From positions 1-63,668 of IMG/VR virus record IMGVR_UViG_3300049432_000050: DNA of 63,668 nucleotides, one strand, 5' to 3'. This document shows positions 28,282 through 45,733 of this stretch, one piece after another; positions within the stretch are counted from its first letter, which is position 1; the number at the start of each line of letters is the position of its first letter. A program made the position numbers and the translations under genes. Under the pieces are notes generated by a model, which saw only the letters and a list, made by a program, of their open reading frames with translations, had not been told where the DNA came from and made no database searches. Origin of the DNA: a virus.

Positions 28282-29229
28282 ATGCCGACCTTTCTGACCA
28301 TGCCGCAGGTTGCCACCAGGGCACTTGCGACGCTCCTGAACGATTCCGTGCTGATCGGGCTCGTCAGCCGCGACTACGACAGTGCGTTCGCTGGGAAGCA
28401 GGGCGCGACCGTCAACGTCCGCGTCCCGATGGTGTTCGCCGCCAACAGCTTCAACCGGTCGACGGGCATTCAGCTGCAGAACCCCGCTGAGGACACGTTC
28501 CCCGTCGTCTTGGACAAGATCGCGGACGTGTCGTTCGCGGTCACGTCGGAGGACCTGACGCTCACGATCGACGACTTCACCGACCGACTCCTGAACCCTG
28601 CGATGCAGGCGATCATCGAGATGGTCGAGGGCGACATCACGGAGAAGCTCGTTGACGCCGCGAACCAGACCGCGAACCCGGGCGCGACGAATGACTATCC
28701 GGCGAAGCAGTCCGGTGGCGGTGTCGTCACGACCCCGGACGGGACGCACCCGTCGAAGGTGCTGATCCCCGCCAAGACGAAGCTGAACCGCAACAAGATC
28801 CCGACCGTCAACCGGTTCGCGATCTTCTCCCCCGAAGCATCCGGTGTCGTGATCGGCGACTCGATCATGCATGAGGCCGACAAGCGCGGGAACACCGACG
28901 GGCTCGTCGAAGCCGCGATCGGCCGGAAGTTCGGGTTCGACTCGTACGAGTCCAACTACCTTGGGTATGGGTCCGGGGACCGCGGGCAGGCGGACGGCGT
29001 CGCGTTCCACAGGGACGCGATCACGCTCGCGACCAGGACCCTCGAACTGCCGCTCGGGAAGATCGGATCGCAGGCGGCTGTCAAGAGCTACAAGGGCCTC
29101 GGATTGCGAATCGTCTATGGATACGACATGACCTACAAACAAGACATTTGCTCCATCGATTTTCTTTACGGCACTCGTGCGGTCCGTCCGCAGGCCGCCG
29201 TTGAGCTCGATCTCGCGCAGGGCTCCTAA
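28282..29229 (+). CDS. Major capsid protein (P22 coat type)
   Basis: 315 residues. The N-terminus (LTMPQVATRALATLLND) with FAGKQGATVNVRVP and VTSEDLTLTIDDF matches the P22 gp5-like coat family common in actinophages. The HK97-type fold is expected. An AGGAG site and the position after the scaffold support it. The 159-bp gap before it contains only a short frame starting at 28141, which I do not count as a gene. Confidence 0.85.
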   Translation: MPTFLTMPQVATRALATLLNDSVLIGLVSRDYDSAFAGKQGATVNVRVPMVFAANSFNRSTGIQLQNPAEDTFPVVLDKIADVSFAVTSEDLTLTIDDFTDRLLNPAMQAIIEMVEGDITEKLVDAANQTANPGATNDYPAKQSGGGVVTTPDGTHPSKVLIPAKTKLNRNKIPTVNRFAIFSPEASGVVIGDSIMHEADKRGNTDGLVEAAIGRKFGFDSYESNYLGYGSGDRGQADGVAFHRDAITLATRTLELPLGKIGSQAAVKSYKGLGLRIVYGYDMTYKQDICSIDFLYGTRAVRPQAAVELDLAQGS

Positions 29230-29285: not shown

Positions 29286-30128
29286 ATGCCGAAGTACGAG
29301 GTGCGGCTGCGGTCGCAGACGGACGATCAGTCGAGACTCACGACGCTGTCCGCGGCCAGCGAGGAGGAAGCGAGGGCGCGCTGCGTGCTCGCTGAGCGCG
29401 AGGTCGTGGACTACACCCTGGACGGCGACGAGTACCTGACGGACGACGAGCGGGAAGCGATCGTCGACACTGTCCGTGTTGACGATGACGGGAAGATGGT
29501 GGGTGCGGACAAGCGGTTCCGCGGGAAGCTGCACCAGCACCTCCAACAGCAGCTGTACGTCGTCGAGGCGGTGCGGGAGGTTCCGTTGGACACGGGTCGG
29601 CTCGTCGCGGAGCTCGTGGCGCTCAAGCAGGTCCCGGAGACGTGGGACCGCATGCTGGAGGACATGCACGCCGCCGGGATCGATCTCGCTGCGGTGACCG
29701 CCTTGATCTACGGGGTGCCGACGAAGAATCAGTACGACGGGACGGCGGTCACGGACTGGGATACCGACACGATCAAGGCGGCGTTGCTGACCGCGTACAC
29801 GGTCAATCAGGACACGCACGATTTCTTCGATGACGTGTCCGGGACGGAGATCACGGGGACGGGGTACACCGCCGGGGGCGCGACGCTCGGGTCGAAGACG
29901 GCGACGTATGACACCGCGACCGACCAGACCCGGATGGACGCGGCCGACACGACATGGACGACGAGCACGCTCAGCGCAACGGATTGCGTGGTCTACAAGA
30001 GCACGGGGACCGCGAGCACGTCGCCGTTGATCGTCGCCGTTGACTTCGGTGGGACTGTCGCGACGACCGCCGGGACGTTTCAGGTCACCTGGGATTCGCT
30101 CGGGTTGCACGTCCTGGATCTGACGTAG
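29286..30128 (+). CDS. Head decoration/structural protein
   Basis: 280 residues. A helical charged N-terminal domain (about 1-130) is joined to a Thr/Ser/Asp-rich beta domain (about 145-280) with repeated TxT patterns and a FGGTV strand. The C-terminal domain occurs in several phages as a separate or fused head-associated module. A GTAAGGAGG site precedes the ATG. It is the gene right after the coat. Confidence 0.6.
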   Translation: MPKYEVRLRSQTDDQSRLTTLSAASEEEARARCVLAEREVVDYTLDGDEYLTDDEREAIVDTVRVDDDGKMVGADKRFRGKLHQHLQQQLYVVEAVREVPLDTGRLVAELVALKQVPETWDRMLEDMHAAGIDLAAVTALIYGVPTKNQYDGTAVTDWDTDTIKAALLTAYTVNQDTHDFFDDVSGTEITGTGYTAGGATLGSKTATYDTATDQTRMDAADTTWTTSTLSATDCVVYKSTGTASTSPLIVAVDFGGTVATTAGTFQVTWDSLGLHVLDLT

Positions 30129-30131
30129 AGG

Positions 30132-30479
30132 GTGGTTCGGCACACCCTTCAGGTGCAGGCGTTCGCGACTCCGGCCCGGTTGAACAACCTGCAGGCGGAT
30201 GTCAATACTGCCGTGGCGGGCCGTGTTGACGTGACGAACCTCACGGTGCGTCAGCAGACGACCCGCGGCGTGTCGTACCTGTTGGTTGAGGCGGACTTCA
30301 CGGGCCGCGGGAGCGGGGAGGCGATCATGGACACGCTCGTCGCGCGGATGCAGACCCGGCAGACCGTCGCCCCGTCCTACGTGTGGCTGAAGTCGACGGA
30401 TGACGTGGCGCGAACGCAGACGGAGCGTCATGCGGTCGCGCCCGGCTGGACGATCACCGACGTCGTCACGCAGGTGTAG
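30132..30479 (+). CDS. Hypothetical structural-region protein, 115 aa
   Basis: An alpha/beta protein with a regular strand-helix-strand pattern (VTNLTVRQQTTRGVSYLLVE). It starts at GTG 3 nt after the previous gene. It might be a minor virion or assembly protein; no family. Confidence 0.55.
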   Translation: MVRHTLQVQAFATPARLNNLQADVNTAVAGRVDVTNLTVRQQTTRGVSYLLVEADFTGRGSGEAIMDTLVARMQTRQTVAPSYVWLKSTDDVARTQTERHAVAPGWTITDVVTQV

Positions 30480-30481
30480 GC

Positions 30482-32434
30482 ATGGCGGTCCGCAACTTCA
30501 CCGCGAACAACAGCGAGTTGCGCGTCCCCGTCATCGCGGGCTCCAACGTGGGGGCGGATTTCACGCTCGCGGTCCTCGTGAAGCCGAACACGCACGCGGA
30601 CTGGCAGGCGATGATGGCCGGGCAGACGTCGGCCGGGGCGTATCAGTGGGAGTTCGGCGTCGACCCGGCGGACCGCGTCGTGTTCTACACCGTCAACGGC
30701 AACGCGCTCAGGACGGCTGCGGCGACGGTCTCGACGACGACGATCTGGTACATCGTCGCGGTCACCCGCAGCGCGACCGCGTCTCGGTTCCACGTCTTCC
30801 CGTTCGGGGGCCCGTGGTCGCACGCGGATGCCTCCAGCGCGTTCGGGACCGCATCGTCGACGAGCGGCGGGTACATCTCGTTCGGTGAGGCGCAGGACGT
30901 CGACGACCTGAACATGCGCATGGCGACCGCGGCCGTCTGGAACGCGGCGCTGTCCGACGCGCAGATCGAGGCGCTCGCGACGGGGACCGCGACCGCGAAC
31001 TGGGTCAACCATGCCGTCGCCCCGATCGGCGTGTGGGACTTCAATCAGGCCGTGAACACCGACAACGTCCCGGACCTGAAGGCCGCGCACGCCACGATCA
31101 CGGGGACGATCACCGGCACGACGGACCTCAACGGGATCGCCGGGACGACGATCGTGACCGGCGACGACCCGCCATCGTGGACGTTCGGGGCGGGCGGGAC
31201 GAACGCGACGGTGACAGCGGTCGCAGCGATCGGGTCCGCCGCAGCGGTCACGCACGCGGTATCGGCTGGCAGCGTGGTCACGAGCCCGCCGGGTCTGGGT
31301 GTCGGTTCGGCGCCGGTGAGCACCATTGCGGCCGGGTCGGTGGTCGCGGCGCCTGCAGCACTGGGAGCCGGGACCTCGCCAGCGCCGGCAGCAGTGGCGG
31401 GCAGCGTGACGGTGGCCCCCGCTGCGCTCGGTGCGGGCTCGGCGCCCCCGCCGGTACCGGCGGGCGCATATGAGGCGCTGGTGCCCGCGGCACTCGGCGC
31501 AGCGGTCGCCACGACACCCGTCGTCGGTGCGGGCAGCCTCGTCGTCTCGCCTGCGGCGCTCGGCGGCGGGTCAAGCCCCGTCCCGGCCGTCACGGCTGGC
31601 AGCGCGGTCACGGTGCCACCCGCGATTGGCGTTGGTTCCGCTCCGGCGCCCGCCGTCGCTGGCGCCTACGAAGTGCTGGCGACGGCGGCGTTCGGGATCG
31701 GCAGCGCGCCCGCGCCCGCGGTTACGGCGGGCAGCGCCATCGCAGCGCCCGCCGCCACGGGAACGGGAACAGCGCCGCCGCCCGCCGCGATGGCCGGGAC
31801 GGACGTGCAGCCACCCGCTGCGGTCGGCGCAGTAGCAGCCCTGACGCACACCGCGACCGCCGCCAGTGTCGTGAGCGCCCCCCCAGGCGTCGGGGCCGGG
31901 GCCGCGCCGCCGCCGGCCGTGTCGGGGTCCGGCAGCGCGGTCGTCAGCGCCCTGCCCGGCATCGCGACAGGCACCGCCCCCGCCCCCACCATCGACGCCG
32001 CAAGCGTCGTCACGCCACCAGCCGGGCTCGGCGCGGGGAACGTCCCGCCGCCAGCCGTCGCGGCGATGCTGACCGTGGCCGCCCCCGCAGCGCTCGGCGC
32101 CGCCGTGACGACGACCCCGGCCCTGGCCGCGTCATCGACGGTGCACGCCCCGCCCGCGCTCGGAGCCGGTGTCGCGACGACCCCCGGCGTCACAGCGAGC
32201 TTCGCAGTGCTGGCGCCCGCGGCGCTCGGATCGGCGGTCCTCGGGACGCACACGCTGCGCGCCGACTCCACGATCCTGCCCCCAGCCGCAATCGGGACCG
32301 GCATCAGCCCGCCGCCCGGTGTGTCGGGTGTGACGCCGAGCGTCATCGTCACGGGGCACCGCGGGACACTCGACGCGCTCGAAGCCCTGCCGTCCGGTGT
32401 CGCTGTGGCGGGCATGGAACTCGTCGGAACCTAG
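30482..32434 (+). CDS. LamG-domain protein with 17 mucin-like repeats
   Basis: 650 residues. Residues about 1-175 form a concanavalin/LamG-like beta sandwich (FTLAVLVKPNT, WQWEFGV-type strands, WNAALSDAQIEALA). From about 243 to 616 there are some 17 tandem units of about 22 residues. Each carries a PAALGAG-type core and a TAPPPA-type turn, made almost only of Ala, Gly, Pro, Ser, Thr and Val. A 34-residue non-repeat tail ends the protein. LamG domains bind sugars or proteins. The repeats are likely an extended, possibly glycosylated stalk. It probably protrudes from the virion. The next gene but one opens a glycosyltransferase cassette. Confidence 0.75.
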   Translation: MAVRNFTANNSELRVPVIAGSNVGADFTLAVLVKPNTHADWQAMMAGQTSAGAYQWEFGVDPADRVVFYTVNGNALRTAAATVSTTTIWYIVAVTRSATASRFHVFPFGGPWSHADASSAFGTASSTSGGYISFGEAQDVDDLNMRMATAAVWNAALSDAQIEALATGTATANWVNHAVAPIGVWDFNQAVNTDNVPDLKAAHATITGTITGTTDLNGIAGTTIVTGDDPPSWTFGAGGTNATVTAVAAIGSAAAVTHAVSAGSVVTSPPGLGVGSAPVSTIAAGSVVAAPAALGAGTSPAPAAVAGSVTVAPAALGAGSAPPPVPAGAYEALVPAALGAAVATTPVVGAGSLVVSPAALGGGSSPVPAVTAGSAVTVPPAIGVGSAPAPAVAGAYEVLATAAFGIGSAPAPAVTAGSAIAAPAATGTGTAPPPAAMAGTDVQPPAAVGAVAALTHTATAASVVSAPPGVGAGAAPPPAVSGSGSAVVSALPGIATGTAPAPTIDAASVVTPPAGLGAGNVPPPAVAAMLTVAAPAALGAAVTTTPALAASSTVHAPPALGAGVATTPGVTASFAVLAPAALGSAVLGTHTLRADSTILPPAAIGTGISPPPGVSGVTPSVIVTGHRGTLDALEALPSGVAVAGMELVGT

Positions 32435-32442
32435 GAGGCGCA

Positions 32443-32886
32443 TTGGCGAACTTCGCGACACTCACCGACCTGGCAATCCGGCTCAGCCGCACAACCTCGG
32501 GGGAACTCACGGCCGCGCAGACCGCGCAAGGCAACCTGCTGCTCGAGCTCGCGTCCGGCCTGATCCGGGAGGCCGCGGGCAAGGCCGCGACCTGGGACCC
32601 GGTGCCGGTCCCGACGATTCTGCGCGCGGTGTGTCTGGAGGCGTGCCGCCGCGTGATGACAAACCCGGCCGGGGTCCGGTCGGAGGGCGAAACGCTCGGC
32701 GCGCATCAGCACTCCGTCAGCTACCCCGACGGCGCCGGCGACCTATACCTGACGGACCGTGAAGCGAAGCTCGTCAGGGCCGCCGCCGGGTTGGCGGGCA
32801 GCGCGACAACGATGCCGCTCACGACCGTGGACCTGCTGATCGAGCTCCGGGACACCGGAGAGATCGCGGCGTTCCCAGCCGAATGA
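32443..32886 (+). CDS. Head-tail connector (adaptor-type) protein
   Basis: 147 residues starting at TTG with a textbook TAGGAGG site. The opening (FATLTDLAIRLSRTTSGELT) and helical body with LEACRRVMTNPAG match gp6/gp15-like head-completion proteins that bind under the portal. Normally the next genes are the head-closure and tail-terminator proteins. Here they are displaced to 38601 by the glycosyltransferase cassette. Confidence 0.75.
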   Translation: MANFATLTDLAIRLSRTTSGELTAAQTAQGNLLLELASGLIREAAGKAATWDPVPVPTILRAVCLEACRRVMTNPAGVRSEGETLGAHQHSVSYPDGAGDLYLTDREAKLVRAAAGLAGSATTMPLTTVDLLIELRDTGEIAAFPAE

Positions 32887-33524
32887 GCCTCGTGATCCTC
32901 GTTCCCGTTCTCGCGCGCCCGCAGAACGTGGCGCCGCTGCTCACCTCGATCGGTCTGTCCACGCCGCAACCGCACCGGATCCTCTTCCTCGCGGACCCGG
33001 GCGACACCGCTGAGCACGCCGCGATCACGCACGCGGGCGGCTGGATGCTGTCCCCGGGAGGCGGGTACGCAGCGAAGGTCAACGCCGGGGTCCGCGCGAC
33101 CGACGAGCCGCTGATCCTGCTCGCCGCCGATGACGTTCGGCCCCATCCGGGATGGCTGCCGCGAGCACTCGCGCTGATCAATCGCGGCGCGCACGTCGTT
33201 GGTCTCAACGACCTCATCCCGCGCCCCTTGCGGCCGACGCACGCGACGCACTTCCTGATCACCCGCGAATACGCCGCGAAGCCATGCGCGGACGGGTCGC
33301 GGGGTCCACTCTGGGAGGGCTACGCGCACTGGCGCACCGACGATGAGCTGATCGCGACCGCCACAAAACGCGGGGTGTACGCCTACTGCCCGCAAGCGAT
33401 CGTCGAACACGTCGGCCATCCGATGACACCTGGCGGCGTCGATGACGACACATACAGGAAGGGACGCGCGCAGGCACGTCTCGACGGGAAGCGGTTCGCG
33501 CGGAGAGCGCACTTGTGGGCGTGA
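32883..33524 (+). CDS. GT-A (GT2-like) glycosyltransferase 1
   Basis: 213 residues. The nucleotide-sugar-binding start (VILVPVLARP), VNAGVRATDEPLILLAADD with an Asp-Asp metal site, and a C-terminal WRTDDELIATA segment indicate a GT-A fold. It would transfer a sugar from a nucleotide donor. It overlaps the connector gene by 4 bp and the next transferase by 10 bp. The acceptor is not visible from the sequence. Confidence 0.75.
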   Translation: MSLVILVPVLARPQNVAPLLTSIGLSTPQPHRILFLADPGDTAEHAAITHAGGWMLSPGGGYAAKVNAGVRATDEPLILLAADDVRPHPGWLPRALALINRGAHVVGLNDLIPRPLRPTHATHFLITREYAAKPCADGSRGPLWEGYAHWRTDDELIATATKRGVYAYCPQAIVEHVGHPMTPGGVDDDTYRKGRAQARLDGKRFARRAHLWA

Positions 33525-34141
33525 GCTGGGTCACGGTGACTACGGGCACGTTCGGCGACGAGTCGTGGCAGCGGCTCGCGCGGGAGCGCGCCGGCGCGTC
33601 GGTGCCGGCCGGGGTGCCGTGGATTCACGTGCATGGCGACACGATCGCAGCGGCGCGAAACGCAGCGCTCGCAAGAGTTGAGAGTGCGTTCGTGATCGGA
33701 CTCGATGCCGACGACCAGCTTCCGGGCATCGAGTACATCGAGGCGATGGCCCGCGGCACAGCTGACGTCCGCGTGCCGCTCGTGACCTACGTCCGAGACG
33801 GGCGGGCGCAACGGCCGTGGCAGCCCCGCGTCGCCGGGCACACGCACGACTGCGTTGCGGACTGCCTGGAAGCGGGGAACTGGGTGCCGATCGGGGCATG
33901 CGCCCGAACGAGCCTGCTGCGGACCGTCGGCTTCCATGACTTCGGCTGGTCGGAGGATTGGGCGACGTGGGCTTTCGCCGCTCGGGCGGGCGCATCGTTC
34001 GAACTGATCCGCGACGCGGTATACGTCGCGCACGTCGACACGGCTGGCCGCAATCGTGGACAGAGCCGAGAGGCACGGGACGCGGCGCACTGGGAGATCC
34101 ACCGGACGGTATGGCCCGAACGCTACGCAGAGGCAACGTGA
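33515..34141 (+). CDS. GT-A glycosyltransferase 2
   Basis: 208 residues. AARNAALARVESAFVIGLDADDQLPG carries a clear DADD metal-binding motif, and GWSEDWATWAFAARAG is the conserved acceptor-loop region of GT2 enzymes. The N-terminal strand is short. It starts at GTG within the end of the previous gene. Confidence 0.75.
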   Translation: MGVSWVTVTTGTFGDESWQRLARERAGASVPAGVPWIHVHGDTIAAARNAALARVESAFVIGLDADDQLPGIEYIEAMARGTADVRVPLVTYVRDGRAQRPWQPRVAGHTHDCVADCLEAGNWVPIGACARTSLLRTVGFHDFGWSEDWATWAFAARAGASFELIRDAVYVAHVDTAGRNRGQSREARDAAHWEIHRTVWPERYAEAT

Positions 34142-34824
34142 TCGCGCTGCTCGTGATGACGGACGGCCGCCGCGAGTACCTGCAGCAAACCCTCGCCCGG
34201 TTCGACGAGATGGCGGCCGGCACGATCACGCGCCGGGTGATCCACGACGACTCCGGCGACGCCGACTACGCGCACTGGCTACGCCGAGCGCTGCCGGGAT
34301 ACGAGATCGTCGTAACGGGTGGCCGAACGGGGTTCGCGGCGGCAATGGCATCCGCGTGGCGCACGGTCGCGGATGGCCCCGAACCGTTCGTGATGCACCT
34401 CGAAGACGACTTCCTGTTCACGCGCCCCGTCAACCTCGACGACCTCACCGGCCTACTCGCCGACCGGCCGTATCTCGCGCAGGTCGCGTTTCGCCGGCAG
34501 GCATGGGGCGCGGAGATCGAGCACGGCGGGTTTATGGCGATGATGCCGGGCGCGTACAGCGAGCACACCGACGGACGGCGGTTCTGGGTGGAAACGATCC
34601 GCAACTACTCCACGAACCCGAGCGTGCATCGCCGCGAGCTCTGCCACACAGGGTGGCCACAGTCGCAGCACAGCGAGGGCCTGTACGGCTTCCAGCTGCG
34701 CGAGACCGGGTTGCCGTGGGGTGTCGCCCCGGACGATGTGCGGTTCGGGTTCTGGGGGTCAATGGCGGACGGCGGCGAATGGATCTGGCACATCGGGGAC
34801 TATCGGCGGGGACACACGTACTAG
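34138..34824 (+). CDS. GT-A glycosyltransferase 3
   Basis: 228 residues. Start strands (MIALLVMTDGR), GFAAAMASAWRTVADGPEPF and HLEDDFLF (EDD metal site) fit a GT-A fold. A C-terminal Trp/Gly-rich segment (FGFWGSMADGGEWIWH) may contact the acceptor. Both ends overlap neighbours by 1-4 bp. Confidence 0.75.
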   Translation: MIALLVMTDGRREYLQQTLARFDEMAAGTITRRVIHDDSGDADYAHWLRRALPGYEIVVTGGRTGFAAAMASAWRTVADGPEPFVMHLEDDFLFTRPVNLDDLTGLLADRPYLAQVAFRRQAWGAEIEHGGFMAMMPGAYSEHTDGRRFWVETIRNYSTNPSVHRRELCHTGWPQSQHSEGLYGFQLRETGLPWGVAPDDVRFGFWGSMADGGEWIWHIGDYRRGHTY

Positions 34825-35459
34825 TGCGCGTCTGTGTCCCCTACCGCCCGGACTGCGGGCATCGCGACAGACTGTGGGCAGCATGCGAAACGCGATGGCG
34901 GACGCTGCTTCCCGACGTTGAGATCGTCACCGGGCAGGACGCCGGGGAGCCAATGAACCGGGCGCGATGGCGCAACCGGGCGGCGGCCGGCACGTGGGAC
35001 GTCGCGGTGTTCGCGGACGCCGACATCATGGTCAGCATGCCCGAGCAGGTCACGCTTGCCGTCGCGACCGCCGGGCGAACGGGGCACCTCACCTACGCGC
35101 ATGACTGGCGCGCACAGCTGTCACAGCAGGGAACGACGGAGGTGCTGCAGGGCGGCGACCCGTGCCGCGCGGACATTGAGGCGTGGGATCCGCACACGTT
35201 CTCCGGGTGCTACGCCGTTCCGCGCCGCTTGTGGGACATCGTCGGCGGGTTCGACGAGCGGTTCGCCGGGTGGGGATGGGAGGATCTGGCGTTCATGCGG
35301 GCATGCGGCGCTCTCGGCGGCGGCCTGCAACGCGCACCGGGCGTCATCTACCACTGCTGGCACCCACAGGAACACGACGACGGCAACGAGGAGTTGTGGC
35401 GCGCGTATGAGCGGGCGGGCTGGGCTCCCCACAAGATGAGGCAGGTGATCGCACGGTGA
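34824..35459 (+). CDS. GT-A glycosyltransferase 4 (GT7/GT27-like)
   Basis: 211 residues. VCVPYRPDCGHRDRLW opens the donor-binding fold. VAVFADADIMV holds the DxD motif. VGGFDERFAGWGWEDLAF is the well-known galactosyltransferase-type acceptor motif. It starts at GTG sharing a base with the previous stop. Confidence 0.85.
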   Translation: MRVCVPYRPDCGHRDRLWAACETRWRTLLPDVEIVTGQDAGEPMNRARWRNRAAAGTWDVAVFADADIMVSMPEQVTLAVATAGRTGHLTYAHDWRAQLSQQGTTEVLQGGDPCRADIEAWDPHTFSGCYAVPRRLWDIVGGFDERFAGWGWEDLAFMRACGALGGGLQRAPGVIYHCWHPQEHDDGNEELWRAYERAGWAPHKMRQVIAR

Positions 35460-35995
35460 CCGCAACGAACGTCGGGAAATGGGACCGCTGGTTCGCGCTG
35501 CTCGGCCCCGACTGGGAACCCTTCGGGCAAACCGAAACGTACGAGCTCGCCGCCACGTGGCTGAAGCCGTGCGCCCTGGTCGCTGACTGGGGATGCGGAA
35601 AAGGCTGGATGCGGCACCACATCAAGCGCGACCGCTACTACGGAGTGGATGGGTCGCGGTCCCCGTTCGCGGATGAGATCGCGGACCTCGCGGACTACCA
35701 CCGGGAGTCGCCGGGGATCGTGCTGCGGCACGTCCTCGAGCATGATTACCGGTGGGAACGAATTCTCGCGAACGCGTGCGCAGCGTTCCAGCAGCGGATG
35801 GCGCTGGTGTTGTTCACGCCGCTCGGGGACACGACACGCGAGATCGCGTATGCCGCTGATCCGGGGGTGCCGGACATCTCGTTCGCGTTCTCAGACATCA
35901 AGCGGCACCTGGAGCCGTTCGCGTGGCGCCACGACACGCTGAGCACCGCATCACAGTACGGGACGGAAACGATCTTCTACGTGGAGCGCCCGTGA
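35456..35995 (+). CDS. SAM-dependent methyltransferase
   Basis: 179 residues. VADWGCGKGWM near residue 44 is motif I of class I methyltransferases, and YYGVDGSRSP is the acidic ribose-binding strand. The location inside a glycosyltransferase cassette suggests methylation of a sugar hydroxyl, but the substrate is not shown by the sequence. Confidence 0.75.
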   Translation: MTATNVGKWDRWFALLGPDWEPFGQTETYELAATWLKPCALVADWGCGKGWMRHHIKRDRYYGVDGSRSPFADEIADLADYHRESPGIVLRHVLEHDYRWERILANACAAFQQRMALVLFTPLGDTTREIAYAADPGVPDISFAFSDIKRHLEPFAWRHDTLSTASQYGTETIFYVERP

Positions 35996-36036
35996 TGGCG
36001 CTACCAGAAATGCAACGAACGGGAATGAGGTACTGA
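35995..36036 (+). CDS. Possible 13-residue micro-ORF
   Basis: The frame shares single bases with the upstream stop and the downstream ATG (TGATG at both ends). It may serve only to carry ribosomes across a 40-nt gap to the gene at 36036. Confidence 0.3.
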   Translation: MALPEMQRTGMRY

Positions 36037-36305
36037 TGAATCTTCGGCATGTGGTGGCAGTTGGTCTCGTGCGGGCCGCAGCGCGTGTACTCGCGGGGCA
36101 CGACGATCATGTCGTGATCCTGAACACGAACCGCATGCGGAACCTCCCCGGCAAACCAGACGCGGGGCTGATCAAGCCGTTCCTGCTCAGCGGCGGCAAG
36201 ACGGCGTTGTCTTTCTCGCCTGACGACGCACCGGAGTCTCTTGGCACGCCCGTGCCAGAACGTATCGCGCGTTTGGCCGGATACGACGTCGATCGCATCT
36301 CATGA
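36036..36305 (+). CDS. Hypothetical protein, 89 aa
   Basis: A small alpha/beta protein (HVVAVGLVRAAARVLAG, DDHVVILNTNRM). It lies in the glycosylation cassette but resembles no transferase. It is coupled to an 18-residue frame downstream. Confidence 0.5.
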   Translation: MNLRHVVAVGLVRAAARVLAGHDDHVVILNTNRMRNLPGKPDAGLIKPFLLSGGKTALSFSPDDAPESLGTPVPERIARLAGYDVDRIS

Positions 36306-36358
36306 CTACGGCTAAGCGGGAACGCGCGGACACGGCGTTCTGGGCGGTGCGGCTGTGA
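36302..36358 (+). CDS. Possible 18-residue peptide
   Basis: An ATGA overlap links it to the 89-residue gene. It may be the truncated start of a gene displaced when the HNH gene entered, since it ends just before the HNH promoter. Confidence 0.25.
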   Translation: MTTAKRERADTAFWAVRL

Positions 36359-36378
36359 CGCTCTGCCGATGTATCTGT

Positions 36379-36420
36379 GACAATAGGAGGACCCGCCAGC
36401 GCTTGCGACGCTGCGGGTCC
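36379..36420 (+). promoter_or_regulatory. Promoter box and 5'-UTR hairpin of the inserted HNH gene
   Basis: GACAAT (36379-36384), with GTGACG 18 bp upstream, is followed by a hairpin with arms 36389-36401 and 36409-36420 and one bulged C. GGAGGATCGAC then precedes the ATG at 36448. Such a hairpin can block read-through translation of the endonuclease from the late operon. Confidence 0.5.
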
Positions 36421-36447
36421 CGGCCAATCCTGAGACGGAGGATCGAC

Positions 36448-37158
36448 ATGAACGATGATACGCCAGCGGAGGTCATGGACCGCTTCTGGCAACGCGTCGA
36501 TAAGCGCCCCGACTGCTGGCTTTGGACGGGTGGCCGTCGGAAGGGCAGACCGATCTTCTACGTCAGCAGTGAACGAGGCTACATCTACGGACGTCGCTTT
36601 GCGTGGGAGATCAACGGCGGCGAGCTGGACTCAAAGACGCTAGTCAAGGCAGCCTGCGGAGTGACGCTATGCGTCAACCCCGAACACGCCGTTCTGGTCC
36701 CGCGATGCCAAGTGGGCACGCAAGATATCGCTGCTGAGAAGCGGTGCGGAGGCTGCAAGGAGATGCTTCCCGCGCATGCCTTTAGTCGAAACCGCCGGAC
36801 ATCTACAGGTCTGTCGTCATGGTGTCGATCTTGCGTGCAGGAGAAGGCGCGTAACTACCGACTGAGCGATCCCGATGGGTGGCGCGAGAACAAGCTCTTC
36901 GTACGCTACGGGATCACCGCTGAGCAATACGATGCCCTGTTGGCGGCACATCGAGGGGTCTGCGCGGTGTGCGAGCGACCCAACAATCAGAACGACCGTC
37001 GCACAGGCCAGCACCGCCGACTGCACATCGACCATGACCATGCGACCGGCAAGGTTCGCGGACTGCTGTGCGCGAAATGCAATTCAGCTCTCGGACACGC
37101 CGACGACAGCCCGGAGCGACTACGCGCGATGGCCCTATATCTGGAGCGCTCCACATGA
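36448..37158 (+). CDS. HNH/endonuclease VII-type homing endonuclease
   Basis: 236 residues. The N-terminal part (DCWLWTGGRRKGRPIFYV, CVNPEHAVLV) is an HNH_3-like DNA-binding fold. The middle has a CGGCKEML zinc pair. The C-terminal part (YGITAEQYDALLAAHRGVCAVC, LHIDHDHATGKVRGLLC, CNSALGHADD) is a complete recombination-endonuclease-VII domain with the catalytic DHDH. It interrupts the glycosyltransferase cassette with its own promoter and hairpin, so it is probably a mobile insertion. Confidence 0.85.
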   Translation: MNDDTPAEVMDRFWQRVDKRPDCWLWTGGRRKGRPIFYVSSERGYIYGRRFAWEINGGELDSKTLVKAACGVTLCVNPEHAVLVPRCQVGTQDIAAEKRCGGCKEMLPAHAFSRNRRTSTGLSSWCRSCVQEKARNYRLSDPDGWRENKLFVRYGITAEQYDALLAAHRGVCAVCERPNNQNDRRTGQHRRLHIDHDHATGKVRGLLCAKCNSALGHADDSPERLRAMALYLERST

Positions 37159-37949
37159 CAACGGTCGCTGTCAGCCTCGTGAAAGACGAGCTGGACATCC
37201 TGCCGTTCACGCTCGCGCACATGCTGGAGCAATGCGACGCGATCATCGTCGCGGACAACATGAGCCGCGACGGGACACGCGAACTGCTGCACGGGTGGAT
37301 GGACGGTCGCCTGACCGTCATCGATGACCTCGAGCCCGCGTATCTCCAGTCGGAGAAGATGAGCGCGCTCGCGGAGCGGGCCCGCGGGATGGGCGCGACC
37401 TGGGTCCTGCCGTGGGACAGCGACGAGGCGTGGTTTGCGCGCAGTGGCCGCCGGATCGCTGACGTGCTGGCCGGGCTGCCGCGAGACGTGCTGATCGTGG
37501 AGGCCGACCTGTGGGATCACGTCCCGACGAGCCTTGACCCCGACGACGCGAACCCGCTGACCCGGATCGGGTGGCGCCGCTCCTACCCGGGCCCGCTGCC
37601 GAAGGTCGCGGTCCGCGCAGTGGACGGTGTCGTGATTGAGCAGGGCAACCACGGCGCGTGGTTCCCGCACACGGACCTGCCGGCGAAGGTGTCGAACCTC
37701 CTCACGCTCCGCCACTATGCCCTGCGGTCACCGGAGCAGATGATCCGCAAGGCACGCAACGGCGGCGCGGCGTACGCGGCAACCACCCTGCCGGAGCACG
37801 TCGGTGCGCACTGGCGGCGATGGTCGATGCTCAGCGACGAGCAGTTGCGCGAGGTGTTCGAGCGCTACTACTTCGCGGCGGACCCGGAGGCCGGTCCGAT
37901 GCCGCTGACGTTCGACCCGGCGCCGGTGCGATGCCCATTGCCGTCCTAG
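37155..37949 (+). CDS. GT2-family glycosyltransferase 5
   Basis: 264 residues. VAVSLVKDELDILPFTLAHML, with AIIVADNMSRDGT, is the classic GT2 start. VLPWDSDEAWF supplies the DxD site. The C-terminal half has GNHGAWFPHTDL and a helical RRWSMLSDEQLREVFERYYF. It overlaps the HNH gene by 4 bp, so its original ribosome-binding context was lost or replaced by the insertion. Confidence 0.85.
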   Translation: MTTVAVSLVKDELDILPFTLAHMLEQCDAIIVADNMSRDGTRELLHGWMDGRLTVIDDLEPAYLQSEKMSALAERARGMGATWVLPWDSDEAWFARSGRRIADVLAGLPRDVLIVEADLWDHVPTSLDPDDANPLTRIGWRRSYPGPLPKVAVRAVDGVVIEQGNHGAWFPHTDLPAKVSNLLTLRHYALRSPEQMIRKARNGGAAYAATTLPEHVGAHWRRWSMLSDEQLREVFERYYFAADPEAGPMPLTFDPAPVRCPLPS

Positions 37950-38662
37950 TGCCTTGGAGGACCTCGTCGTGTCCGCATCGCAAGCGGGCGTTCGCGTGGG
38001 TGCTCGCAAGGCTCGCCGTGCACGGCTGGCCGATCATCGTCGGGAGGCACGACGACGGGCCGTGGTGCAAGGCGATGGCGGTCGCGGACGCGCTCGATCA
38101 GACAGCCGCGGATGTCCTCGTTCTGCATGACGCGGACGTGATCGCGGATGGGCTCGCTGAGGCCGTGCGAACGGTGCAGGCGGGTGCCGCGTGGGCGATG
38201 GCGCACCGCAGCGTCCACCGACTCACGGAGGCCGCCACCGGCCGCCTGATCGCCGGGGAGGACCCGGCGGGACTGGCGGTCGCGGAGCGCGCGTACCGCG
38301 GCGTCGAAGGCGGCGGCATCACCATCGTGCGGCGCGACGTGTACGAGGACTGCCCGCTGGACCCGCGGTTCCTCGGATGGTCCGGCGAGGACGAAGCGTT
38401 CGGCTGGGCACTCAGGACGCTGAACGGCCCGCCGTGGCGGCCGCTGGGGCACGCGCCGCTGTGGCACTGCTGGCATCCGTCACAGTCGCGGGCAACGAGG
38501 GCGCGCGGTTCGCTCGTGAGTTGGGACCTCAGAAAGAGATACGCGCGAGCACAGCACGACCCGACCGCCATGAGGGCACTGATCGAGGAGGCGAAGACCT
38601 GTGAGCTTGACGGACCTGCTGAACCGGCCGGTGACGATCGTCAGGCGGTCCGAGGTCGATGA
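37931..38662 (+). CDS. GT-A glycosyltransferase 6
   Basis: 243 residues. MPIAVLVPWRTSSCPHRKRA, VLVLHDADVIAD (DAD metal site) and VEGGGITIVRRDVYEDC, then GWSGEDEAFGWAL, match the GT7-like acceptor arrangement seen in transferase 4. It overlaps transferase 5 by 19 bp and the connector gene by 62 bp, the largest overlap in the structural region. This suggests the right-hand junction of the cassette. Confidence 0.8.
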   Translation: MPIAVLVPWRTSSCPHRKRAFAWVLARLAVHGWPIIVGRHDDGPWCKAMAVADALDQTAADVLVLHDADVIADGLAEAVRTVQAGAAWAMAHRSVHRLTEAATGRLIAGEDPAGLAVAERAYRGVEGGGITIVRRDVYEDCPLDPRFLGWSGEDEAFGWALRTLNGPPWRPLGHAPLWHCWHPSQSRATRARGSLVSWDLRKRYARAQHDPTAMRALIEEAKTCELDGPAEPAGDDRQAVRGR

Positions 38663-41042: not shown

Positions 41043-44000
41043 TGGCGACGAAGGTGGGCACCGGCTACGTCTCGATCGAGCCAGAATTCGACCAGTTCGA
41101 CGCGCAGGTCCGCGCCCGCCTGTCGGCGCTCGACAACGAGTTCAAGCGGGTCGGCCGGTCCGCCGGGGACGGGTTCTCGCAAGGGTTCTCCGCGGGCCGT
41201 TCGTCGCGTGAGCTTGACACGGTCCGCGGGAAGCTCAGCGACGTTGACCGGGAGGCGAAGAAGACATCCAAGAGCCTCGGCGGCATCGGGTCCGGCGGCG
41301 GCGGTGGCGGGATCAGGAACACGAGCCGTGACCTCGATGCGTTCGGTGGCGCCGCGGCGGGGGCGACGGCAACGATCGGCGGGTTCCGTGTCGCGCTCGC
41401 CGCGCTCGTGCCCGTCACGATCGGGTTCGGTGGCGCAGCGGTCGCGGCCGGCGCGAGCCTGATCCCGCTCGCCGGGCTCGCCGCCGCCGCAGGCAACGCG
41501 CTGGCCGCCGCGGCGCAGGGAATGGGGGTCTTCAAGCTCGCGACAATGGGTGTCGCGGACGCGCTGAAGGAACAGGTCGATAAGCAGGGCAAGGCGGCGT
41601 CCGCGGCGATCAGCACCGCGGGGCAGCAGCGCGCCGCCGCACGATCGATCCAGTCCGCGCAGGACGGGCTACGCGACGCCGTCCGTGCCGCGTCCGACGC
41701 GGTACTGGAACAGGCGAAGGCCGCGGACGCGATCACGCCGGCGTTCACCACGGCGCGTGTCCGCGTGAACGATCTGCGTCAAGCGGTCGTCGATGCTGGT
41801 CTGTCGTTGCGTGGCGCGAAGCTCGCCGCGGAGGATGCGCGGCAGGCTCTCGCGGACCTCGTCAACGGCCCGGATCCGCGGAAGCTCGCGGACGCGCACC
41901 GTGCGATCACCGACGCGGTTCGTGGTGAGGACTCGGCGGTGCAGGCGCTGACGGACGCGCACAAGGCGCTGCAGGATCTCCTCAAGCCCGCCGACGCGCT
42001 CTCGGTTGCGGACGCGACGGATGCGGTCGCGGACGCGGTCCGCAACGAGGAACGCGCCCGCCTCGCGCTGAACAAGCAGATCACCGAGACCAGGTTCATC
42101 CTGCAGGGTGGCCCAGGGGTCACCGACGACGCGCAGGCACAGGCCCGCCTCGATCTCGCGGACGCGGAGAACGCGGTAGGGGACGCGACGCGGCAGACGG
42201 AGCACGCGAAGGAGGGCCTCAAGAAGCTGGAGGGTCCCGACCAATCGGCGGTTGAGGCGGCCCGCCGGAAGGTCAGCGACGCTGAGGAAGGGGTTCGCCG
42301 CGCGGCGGAAACGACGCTGAGCGCACGGAAGGATCTCGTCGACCTTGAGAAGCCCGCGACGTCATTGGAGCTCGCGAAGGCACGCTTGGATGTTGCGCAG
42401 GCGGAGAACGCGGTGGGGGACGCTGAGCGTGACCGGTTGCGATCGTCGCGGGATCTCGCGGAAGCGGAGAAGCTTGGGCTCAGCCGGGCGCCCGAGGTCG
42501 TCGCCGCCCGTGACGCGCTGGCGAAAGCAAACCGGGACGTCGAGGACTCCGAACGGGCGGTCGCACGCGCTGAGCAGGCATTGGGGGATGCGCAGCTGTC
42601 CGCGAAGGAGGCGATGGCGTCCGCCGGACTGGCCGCAGCGAACCTGAACGAGAAGTTCGACAAGCTCCCGCCGGCCGCGCAGGCATTCGTGCGGGTGCTG
42701 AAGGACATGAAGCCGCGCCTCGACGAGCTGCGGCAGACCGCTGCCGCCGGGTTCTTCCCCGGCGCCACCGAGGGGCTACAGGCAGCCGCGCACAACTTCG
42801 ACAGCGTCAACAAGGTCGTCGGGCAGACCGCGACCGTCCTCGGCGAAGCGGCCCGCAAGAGCGGCGAGCTCGTCGGGAGCCCGGCGTTCGGGAAGGATCT
42901 AGAGACGATCGGTGGCCGCAACGCGAAGGTGCTCGACACCCTCGGCGAAGCACTCCGCCACGTCGTATCCGCGTTGCGGTACGTCGCGCTGGCAGCGGGC
43001 CCGTTGACGCAGCACCTCGCGGACCTCATCAACGGCTGGTCGAAAACTGCGGCATCCTCAGCGAAGGCGGGCGAGGAGTCCGGCCGGCTCGCGGGGTTCT
43101 TCCAGAAGACGGAGGACATCACCCGCCGGCTGCTGTCCGTGCTCGGGCACCTCGGCTCCGGGCTGCTCGGTGTCGGCAAGGCCGGGAAGGACACCGGCGA
43201 CGACATCTGGAAGAGCATTGACAAGGCCGCGAAGCGGTTCGATGAGTGGGCGAACAGCGCGAAGGGCCAGAAGGCGCTGAAGGACTTCTTCCGCGAAGCG
43301 AAGGAGCTCGCGGCGGCACTCATCCCGATCATCGGGGGTGTCGCGAAGGGCGTCGGGTTCCTCGTGTTCAAGGCGCTGCCGTTGTCGGAGATCCTGAAGC
43401 TCCTCGGCCCGTACGCCGACGAGGCGACGGTCGCGTTCGTCGCGTTCAAGGTCGCGACGTTCGCTGCGGCGGCCGCATCGAACGTCGCGGGGTTCGCGAC
43501 GAAGGCGTGGGCGGCCGGGCAATGGCTGCTCAACGCGGCCCTGGCGGCGAACCCGATCGTGCTCATCGTCGCCGGTCTCGCCGCGCTCGCCGCAGGACTG
43601 ATCTACGCGTACACGCACTCCGAGACGTTCCGCAAGATCGTCGACGGTGCGCTGCATGCCGTCGGTGACGCGTTCACGTGGATGTGGAACGCCGCGAAGG
43701 ACGTCTTCAACTGGCTGAAGGAGAACTGGCCGCTCGTGCTAGCGATCCTCACGGGGCCGATTGGGCTCGCGGTCCTAGAGATCGTGAAGCACTGGGATGA
43801 CATCAAGCGCATCTTCACGGACGGCGTGAAGGCAGTCATCGACGGCATCACCGCCGCCGCGCAGTGGTTCATCGACGCTGGAAAGAACATGGTGCGCTGG
43901 ATCGTGGATGGCATCAAGGCTCTCGCGTCCGCGCTCGCGGATGCCGCGGGCTGGGTCAAGAACCGCTTCGTTGACGGCATCCAAGCGGTCGCCGAAGCCT

Positions 44001-45733
44001 TCAAGTCCGTCGGGACCTGGGTGCTCAACCGGTTCGTGGACGGCGTGAAAGCGGTCGCCAGCGTCATTGCCGATGTCGCGGGCTGGCTAAAGAACCGGTT
44101 CGTGGAGGGCGTCAAGAACTCGATCGACGCGTTCCTGTCCGTCGGCGGGTGGGTGCTGCACCGGTTCGTCGACGGCGTGATGGCGGCAGTGGACGTGGTC
44201 CTATCGGTCGGCGGGTGGCTGAAGAACCGGTTCCTTGATGGCGTCAACGCCGCGAAGGATGGCTTCCTGAGCGTCGGGAAGAGCATCCTCGGGTTCATCG
44301 TCGACGGCATGAAGAGTGGTGGCCGCCTGCTGCTCGGGTTCGTCAACGACATCATCGACATCGTCAACTCGCTGCTGGGCGCGATCGGTGTCGACAAGAT
44401 CGGGCACATCTCCGCGAAGAGCGTGGGGCTCGCCGCCGAGGGGCACGCACGCGGCGGGGTACTCGGGCTCGCTCGCGGCGGCGCGTTCGCACGGACAGGC
44501 GGCATCGTCGACAAGCCGATGGTCATGCTCGGCGAGGAAGCTCCGACGCACAGGGAATGGGTCATCCCGGAGAACCCGGCATACCGCGACCGGGCGCGCG
44601 ACCTCCTCATGCAGGCATGGGGGACGATTGGGTTCGCGGGCGGCGGCGTCTACAGCAAGAGCGACTTGGCCGCGCTGTGGAAGCGCGCGAACGGCGGGCT
44701 CGGCGACGCGAACCTCATGGCCGCTATCGCGCTCGCGGAATCCGGGGGCGACCCGCGGGCACACAACCCGTCTGGCGCATCAGGTCTATGGCAGATCCTC
44801 GGCAAGCCGTTCCCCGGCGACGCGTTCGACCCGGCGACGAATGCGCGGATGGCCGGCGCGAAGCTGAGCTCGCAAGGGCTCGGGGCCTGGGTGGCGTACA
44901 CGAACGGCGCGTACCGCAAGTTCATGGGCGGCGGCGACAGCGGCGGCGGGCTGCTCGGCAAGATCACCGGCGCCATCGGTGACCTCCTGTCCAAGGGCGC
45001 CGGGCTCATCCTCGACAAGCTCCCCGGGGCCGGTGGCCTCCCGCGCTGGCTGCGCGGCATCGGCGAATCGCTACTGGAAAAGGTCGGCGGATGGGTGAAA
45101 GACAAGGTGTCCGATTTCATCGGTCTCGGCGACGGCGACGGCGCACCGAAGGGCGGTGTGACGGACGCGATTCAGGGCGCGATGGCGCTCGCCCGCAGCA
45201 TGGGCCTCCAGATCACGAGCACGACCGGTGGGCAGCACGCAGCGAACTCCTGGCACTACAAGGGGCGCGCCGCGGACGTCGCCGGAACGCCCGCGCAGAT
45301 GGCCGCGTTCTACAAGGCGGCGCTCGGCCGGTACGACGGGAAGCTGCTCGAACTGTTCTATGACCCGGTCGGCGCGATCAAGAACGGCCAATCCATCCCG
45401 GCGATCGGCGGGCACTCCGATCACGTGCACATCGCGCTTGCGAAGGGCGGCCTCCTCGGCCCGGACGCCCCACCGTTCGGGGGGTCATTCGCGCTCGGCG
45501 GCATCGTCCCGGGCCCCACCGGGGCCCCCCGCCTCATCGAAGCTCACGGAGGAGAGACCGTCATGCCAGAAGGCGAACTGCGAGTACTCATCGGCGAGCT
45601 CCGAGCGTTGAACGCGTCCCCCACCCTTGACGTGATCCGCGCCCTCGTCGGGATCGTCAACACCCAGCAGGGCCGCAGCGCGCGGCACAGGTCGATGACG
45701 GCTGGGCTCGGAGGGTTCCCGGCAACACCGTGA
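41042..45733 (+). CDS. Tape measure protein with two peptidoglycan-hydrolase domains
   Basis: 1563 residues. The N-terminal 700 residues are Ala-rich coiled coil. Hydrophobic segments lie near 110-160 and 830-860. Five tandem 23-residue units (cores such as GWVKNRFVDG and GWLKNRFVEG) span about 968-1082. Residues about 1203-1305 form a soluble-lytic-transglycosylase domain (AIALAESGGDP, SGASGLWQI). Residues about 1373-1473 resemble an M15-type peptidase (HAANSWHYKGRAADV, HSDHVHIAL). At roughly 0.15 nm per residue it predicts a tail of about 230 nm. The hydrolase domains should open the thick wall during DNA entry. Confidence 0.9.
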   Translation: MATKVGTGYVSIEPEFDQFDAQVRARLSALDNEFKRVGRSAGDGFSQGFSAGRSSRELDTVRGKLSDVDREAKKTSKSLGGIGSGGGGGGIRNTSRDLDAFGGAAAGATATIGGFRVALAALVPVTIGFGGAAVAAGASLIPLAGLAAAAGNALAAAAQGMGVFKLATMGVADALKEQVDKQGKAASAAISTAGQQRAAARSIQSAQDGLRDAVRAASDAVLEQAKAADAITPAFTTARVRVNDLRQAVVDAGLSLRGAKLAAEDARQALADLVNGPDPRKLADAHRAITDAVRGEDSAVQALTDAHKALQDLLKPADALSVADATDAVADAVRNEERARLALNKQITETRFILQGGPGVTDDAQAQARLDLADAENAVGDATRQTEHAKEGLKKLEGPDQSAVEAARRKVSDAEEGVRRAAETTLSARKDLVDLEKPATSLELAKARLDVAQAENAVGDAERDRLRSSRDLAEAEKLGLSRAPEVVAARDALAKANRDVEDSERAVARAEQALGDAQLSAKEAMASAGLAAANLNEKFDKLPPAAQAFVRVLKDMKPRLDELRQTAAAGFFPGATEGLQAAAHNFDSVNKVVGQTATVLGEAARKSGELVGSPAFGKDLETIGGRNAKVLDTLGEALRHVVSALRYVALAAGPLTQHLADLINGWSKTAASSAKAGEESGRLAGFFQKTEDITRRLLSVLGHLGSGLLGVGKAGKDTGDDIWKSIDKAAKRFDEWANSAKGQKALKDFFREAKELAAALIPIIGGVAKGVGFLVFKALPLSEILKLLGPYADEATVAFVAFKVATFAAAAASNVAGFATKAWAAGQWLLNAALAANPIVLIVAGLAALAAGLIYAYTHSETFRKIVDGALHAVGDAFTWMWNAAKDVFNWLKENWPLVLAILTGPIGLAVLEIVKHWDDIKRIFTDGVKAVIDGITAAAQWFIDAGKNMVRWIVDGIKALASALADAAGWVKNRFVDGIQAVAEAFKSVGTWVLNRFVDGVKAVASVIADVAGWLKNRFVEGVKNSIDAFLSVGGWVLHRFVDGVMAAVDVVLSVGGWLKNRFLDGVNAAKDGFLSVGKSILGFIVDGMKSGGRLLLGFVNDIIDIVNSLLGAIGVDKIGHISAKSVGLAAEGHARGGVLGLARGGAFARTGGIVDKPMVMLGEEAPTHREWVIPENPAYRDRARDLLMQAWGTIGFAGGGVYSKSDLAALWKRANGGLGDANLMAAIALAESGGDPRAHNPSGASGLWQILGKPFPGDAFDPATNARMAGAKLSSQGLGAWVAYTNGAYRKFMGGGDSGGGLLGKITGAIGDLLSKGAGLILDKLPGAGGLPRWLRGIGESLLEKVGGWVKDKVSDFIGLGDGDGAPKGGVTDAIQGAMALARSMGLQITSTTGGQHAANSWHYKGRAADVAGTPAQMAAFYKAALGRYDGKLLELFYDPVGAIKNGQSIPAIGGHSDHVHIALAKGGLLGPDAPPFGGSFALGGIVPGPTGAPRLIEAHGGETVMPEGELRVLIGELRALNASPTLDVIRALVGIVNTQQGRSARHRSMTAGLGGFPATP

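Follow-up and report, generated by a model that had tools for sequence, protein, structure and literature searches.

A LamG-domain protein with 17 repeats of 22 residues, encoded between the capsid and adaptor genes of an uncultured tailed phage

Gene order in the head module

The window, the whole 63,668-base stretch of DNA analysed here, is an IMG/VR virus record of an uncultured tailed phage with a GC content of 65–72%, and no tRNA genes were found in it. Its head module runs from the terminase and portal genes through the major capsid protein, a gene matching phrog_644, a gene for 115 residues, the gene for a 650-residue repeat protein, the head–tail adaptor and a glycosyltransferase cassette to the head closure (38601), tail terminator and tail tube genes. 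The major capsid protein gene (28282–29229, + strand; phrog_283, E = 2e-49) and the adaptor gene (32443–32886, + strand; phrog_137, E = 2e-24) form the upstream and downstream borders of a slot of accessory genes. The adaptor is 81% and 42% identical to its counterparts in two relatives, termed L004 and L005.

Directly after the capsid gene lies an accessory gene (29286–30128, + strand) with a profile match to phrog_644 in the C-terminal half of its product and a relative in L004. The phrog_644 part (query residues 24–144) is 52% identical to gene 6 of the satellite phage MiniFlayer (E = 8e-4) and also matches a gene of Synechococcus phage S-LBS1 (E = 2e-5). The 115-residue accessory gene (30132–30479, + strand) gave nothing above cut-off in family searches. 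It is followed by the open reading frame of the repeat protein (30482–32434, + strand). The cassette (32883–38662, + strand), delineated by family matches and comparison with relatives, occupies the interval between the adaptor and head closure genes and comprises glycosyltransferases, a methyltransferase and an HNH-like gene (36355–37158), the last labelled from its sequence rather than from a family search. Repeat gene, adaptor and glycosyltransferases are directly consecutive, as the original prediction had described them. Further downstream, the tape measure gene contains 44-residue repeats (43940–44180), and the genes taken to encode the tail tip follow it, from 45730 on.

Architecture of the 650-residue protein

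The protein is made up of an N-terminal part bearing a LamG domain, a stretch of 17 repeats and a short C-terminal tail. The N-terminal part (residues 1–241; 30482–31204, + strand) contains a LamG/ConA-like domain at residues 22–162, which matches PF13385 with E = 4.3e-8 and 33.9 bits, above the curated cut-off of 27.6, in agreement with the domain proposed originally; in the eight records searched with PF13385, this protein was the sole match. Homologues of the LamG part were found neither in 50,697 phage records nor in viral contigs, and the whole 650-residue protein as query likewise returned none from phage records, viral contigs or genome contigs. A sequence search for a homologue of solved structure yielded a single row, an antibody with E = 0.57. 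From the domain match, this part may bind carbohydrate.

The repeats (residues 242–617; 31205–32332, + strand) comprise 17 units of 22 residues with one 2-residue insert after unit 11, delimited by lag identity and a unit finder. They had been predicted at 31210–32331, a few bases from these limits. Across the 390-residue repeat stretch, residue identity at a lag of 22 reaches 0.386, against 0.234 for the best lag in 1,000 shuffles, and the BLOSUM-scored periodicity has z = 16.6; the separate unit finder likewise returned 17 units of 22. The consensus is approximately SVVxAPAALGAGSAPxPAVTAG, and the composition (Ala 28%, Pro 14%, Gly 13%, Val 13%, Thr 10%, Ser 8.5%) bears out the six-residue repertoire originally noted. 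Highly conserved columns are V3 (13 of 17 units), P6 (14), A8 (13), G10 (16), G12 (12), P17 (13) and A21 (13), and columns 9 and 19 are mostly Leu, Ile or Val.

Mean identity between units is 40% at the protein level and 53% at the DNA level, and adjacent units, at 42% protein identity, are barely closer than the average pair. Tandem Repeats Finder detected no DNA-level array at the repeats. Identity between units at codon positions 1, 2 and 3 is 59%, 61% and 38%, and where two units share the same residue (Ala, Pro, Gly, Val, Thr or Leu) the third base is the same in 412 of 1,126 comparisons, which by a rough estimate we judge to be near the expectation from base composition. Conserved residues combined with scrambled third codon positions point to selection on the protein of old repeats, without recent copying. 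RNA folding of the end of the gene showed nothing notable.

The 22-residue repeats had no match in Pfam, PHROG, NCBIfam or PDB, a homologue search with the repeat alignment returned none, and the whole protein had no PHROG match at E = 0.1. Among the titles and abstract openings surveyed in the literature on LamG, virion and capsid fibre proteins, none describes the 22-residue repeat of this protein. AlphaFold2 modelling of a 110-residue segment of five repeats, for which two further repeat segments served as the alignment, gave a mean pLDDT of 44.1; at that low confidence, short strands recur at similar positions from one unit to the next. The full-length protein as a single sequence gave 33.1; no confident fold can be claimed for the repeats from these models. 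A Foldseek search of the PDB with the model returned nothing at E ≤ 0.001; the best-ranked entry, at E = 1.0, was a hyperglycosylated autotransporter and was dismissed as evidence of glycosylation.

The original prediction took the repeats for a mucin-like, O-glycosylated stalk. Mucin-like (PTS) domains are Pro-rich, with Ser/Thr content well above that of the remainder of the protein and with Ser/Thr retained as repeated acceptor sites. The repeats are indeed Pro-rich (13.8%, against 3.7% in residues 1–241) and carry about four Ser/Thr per unit. Their Ser+Thr content is 18.1% (68 of 376 residues), however, against 18.7% (45 of 241) in the LamG part, and the mean across a chosen set of 17 other virion-module genes is 12.7%; it is the whole 650-residue protein that is somewhat high in Ser/Thr, and not the repeats specifically. 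The placement of Ser/Thr among the columns is non-random (0 of 2,000 permutations) and favours the most variable columns (Spearman 0.81 between Ser/Thr count and column entropy); the best column, column 1, has Ser/Thr in 11 of the 17 units, and columns 7, 8, 10, 12, 19 and 21 have none in any unit. Such a pattern fits the exposed, variable positions of a putative structured stalk, and it would also allow occasional glycosylation of the repeats. A reading of the stalk as a mucin is not supported by this residue pattern.

The slot and the cassette in related phages

Relatives were sought with the major capsid protein of the window as query, for which tblastn gave 358 phage records; a capsid alignment as query found no match in genome contigs. 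In a separate tblastn comparison without composition correction, the repeat protein, a MuF-like piece and the third glycosyltransferase drew low-complexity, non-syntenic rows, and only the syntenic rows of that comparison were used. An adaptor search added two further loci (L008 and L009) at 31% identity, which were excluded from all counts.

In L004, the nearest relative with an occupied slot and an IMG/VR contig whose capsid protein and adaptor are 83% and 81% identical to those of the window, the slot encodes a 779-residue repeat protein rich in Ala, Val and Gly. The two proteins share the slot and a C-terminal tail, whereas the L004 protein has no LamG match, nor any other Pfam or PHROG match, and has different repeat periods, of about 19–20 and 96 residues. 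A hidden Markov model of the window repeats found nothing in it at E < 1; direct alignment of the repeat regions gave a weak similarity (z = 4.1, with 0 of 200 shuffles as good). The tail of the window protein (33 residues and the stop codon; 32333–32434, + strand) is conserved in L004, with 71% identity and an alignment z of 13 (200 shuffles). As a query, it matched only this same contig (as L020); the phage hits were weak (E = 2 and 4) and were left unused. From these two sequences, the tail appears to be what stays constant in the repeat protein. In another relative, L003, the capsid protein is 94% identical, yet other genes follow the capsid gene. The different contents in L003 and L004 mark the slot as a spot of turnover. 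The post-capsid genes of L003 (6998–8235) include matches to phrog_26662 and phrog_9600, the latter a ‘tail assembly protein’.

The co-occurrence of glycosyltransferases and slot repeat proteins was compared in ten phage records (L003, or G001, an 8.2-kb fragment ending before the adaptor, was left out), with glycosyltransferases sought through PF00535 only in all ten. Both features are present in the window and in L004 (G002). The L005 record (G003) has glycosyltransferases only: its capsid–adaptor gap is 69 bases, and its cassette is conserved with that of the window (GT1 57%, GT2 57% and GT6 59% identical). By periodicity and composition, no recognisable repeat protein of the window kind is present in its 42 kb. 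The GC filter of the periodicity scan misses the L004 protein, and L005 was hence rechecked by composition, which gave nine frames of at least 150 residues rich in Ala, Gly, Pro, Val, Ser and Thr. In eight of them, 86–95% of second codon positions are G or C, as expected of a sequence read out of frame; for the ninth, which lies on the minus strand, the figure is 74%.

A long repeat protein only is found in four Streptomyces phages of the Hiyaavirus group, Keanu, Hiyaa, Spocter and Galactica, whose whole genomes contain no PF00535 match; searched with the window’s own glycosyltransferases, the whole Keanu genome also gave no match at E = 0.01. In Keanu, whose capsid protein is 44% identical to that of the window, the slot encodes a 1,106-residue protein with 20-residue repeats. 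That period was measured in Keanu and Galactica, and the Hiyaa and Spocter proteins are 62–63% identical to that of Keanu over the full length of the Keanu protein. These Hiyaavirus gp13 proteins (phrog_14065) resemble the window protein in lying directly before the adaptor, in having an N-terminal region followed by many short repeats, in their case of period 20, and in accompanying a related capsid protein. They differ in that their repeats are charged and contain Arg and Lys, and neither their repeats nor their N terminus is significantly similar to that of the window protein; the similarity to phrog_14065 was not significant in shuffle tests, and a by-eye likeness to the Keanu repeats was rejected, with 17 of 200 shuffles as good. 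The remaining three records, Aleemily, VanLee and PSonyx, have neither feature, and their slot is occupied by a single small gene.

Glycosyltransferases and long repeat proteins are thus not linked in the ten records, the Hiyaavirus repeats among them being without significant similarity to those of the window. The cassette lies between the adaptor and head closure genes in the window, L004/L013 and L005 alike. A glycosyltransferase of the window cassette (37149–37949) has a 43% identical relative in Caudovirales GX15bay, a mangrove-soil phage (L021, 12001–12675), where a long glycosyltransferase cluster lies upstream of the terminase and includes genes labelled endoglucanase and mannanase.

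Possible role of the repeat protein

The gene has the head-module position sought in a head fibre or decoration protein, lying between those of the capsid protein and the adaptor, and from this position the protein would be expected in virions. We consider it somewhat probable that the product is an optional, modular accessory virion protein, most plausibly a capsid or neck fibre or adhesin. The C-terminal tail, being constant in the two available sequences, is probably the anchor that attaches the protein to the virion, with the LamG domain then at the distal, unattached end. The 17 repeats, punctuated by Pro and Gly, would form an extended stalk in which the conserved Val, Pro, Leu and Gly columns pack and the variable, Ser/Thr-bearing columns face the solvent. 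At its tip, the LamG domain may bind polysaccharide of the host or the environment ahead of tail engagement.

Comparable proteins are known from other phages. Hoc- and gp8.5-type proteins have Ig-like or coiled-coil folds and, unlike the window protein, are not known to have a LamG domain or 22-residue repeats. What the window protein would share with them is that they are capsid-surface proteins, thought to bind carbohydrate and dispensable for capsid stability (PMC7602432); according to the same source, the decoration proteins Hoc, pb10, gp12 and gp8.5 enhance binding to the cell surface through carbohydrates. As described in PMC3556154, phiCbK gp76 is a long protein with a ConA-like domain, encoded near head genes and proposed to form a head filament. 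Both gp76 and the window protein have a ConA-like lectin domain and repeats, would be long and flexible, and are encoded nearer the head than the tail genes. By that account, gp76 has 2,799 residues, is Gly-rich, carries its lectin domain centrally and contains tandem duplications at the DNA level, whereas the window protein has 650 residues, an N-terminal LamG domain and Ala/Pro repeats without a DNA-level array. Host adhesion has also been linked to a LamG protein in a Cbk-like phage (PMC9127768).

The glycosyltransferases may act on the major capsid protein or the tail tube, the repeat protein simply being encoded next to them among other surface genes, an account that we hold to be nearly an even call and that is compatible with an adhesin role for the repeat protein. 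The place of the cassette is constant even in L005, where the repeat protein is lacking, although the acceptor could vary from phage to phage. Freeman 2023 is reportedly the primary source for glycans on the capsids of Che8 and Rita. In both phages the glycans are reported on the major capsid proteins (PMC11256854), so neighbourhood alone has no power to single out the repeat protein; together with the separability of cassette and repeat protein in relatives, this undercuts the original choice of that protein as the best candidate acceptor by adjacency.

A tail-side fibre, or minor tail protein, whose gene stands in the head module by chance is unlikely: the submitters of Hiyaa and Galactica labelled the proteins homologous to that of Keanu gene 13 ‘minor tail protein’, but without stated evidence, and the presumed tail-tip genes of the window lie beyond its tape measure gene. 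Quite improbable is a mucin-like stalk that is O-glycosylated by the adjacent cassette and shields the virion, for although the cassette lies one gene downstream in both the window and L004, its retention in L005, the four Hiyaavirus-group genomes without PF00535 and the Ser/Thr pattern described above all speak against it. What stands of the fibre first proposed is that the context fits a repeat-stalked LamG protein of the head module, which could bind polysaccharide; its role as a mucin-like, O-glycosylated acceptor is not supported.

The content of the capsid–adaptor slot is swapped rapidly, and with an accessory adhesin as the preferred reading, phages would trade stalks and tips while keeping a common tail. 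More tentatively, this phage group may possess a modular surface-fibre slot, in which a constant C-terminal anchor peptide is combined with repeat stalks swapped, and lectin tips optionally present, between close relatives, the stalk here being a 22-residue repeat outside the family libraries searched. A Pro/Ala-rich repeat adjoining glycosyltransferases is not necessarily their substrate, which corrects a tempting inference. If the adhesin reading is true, the known range of phage surface fibres would be extended by a repeat type and a candidate anchor peptide, and the C-terminal tail beside the adaptor gene would provide a simple marker for fast-changing capsid adhesins in uncultured phages.
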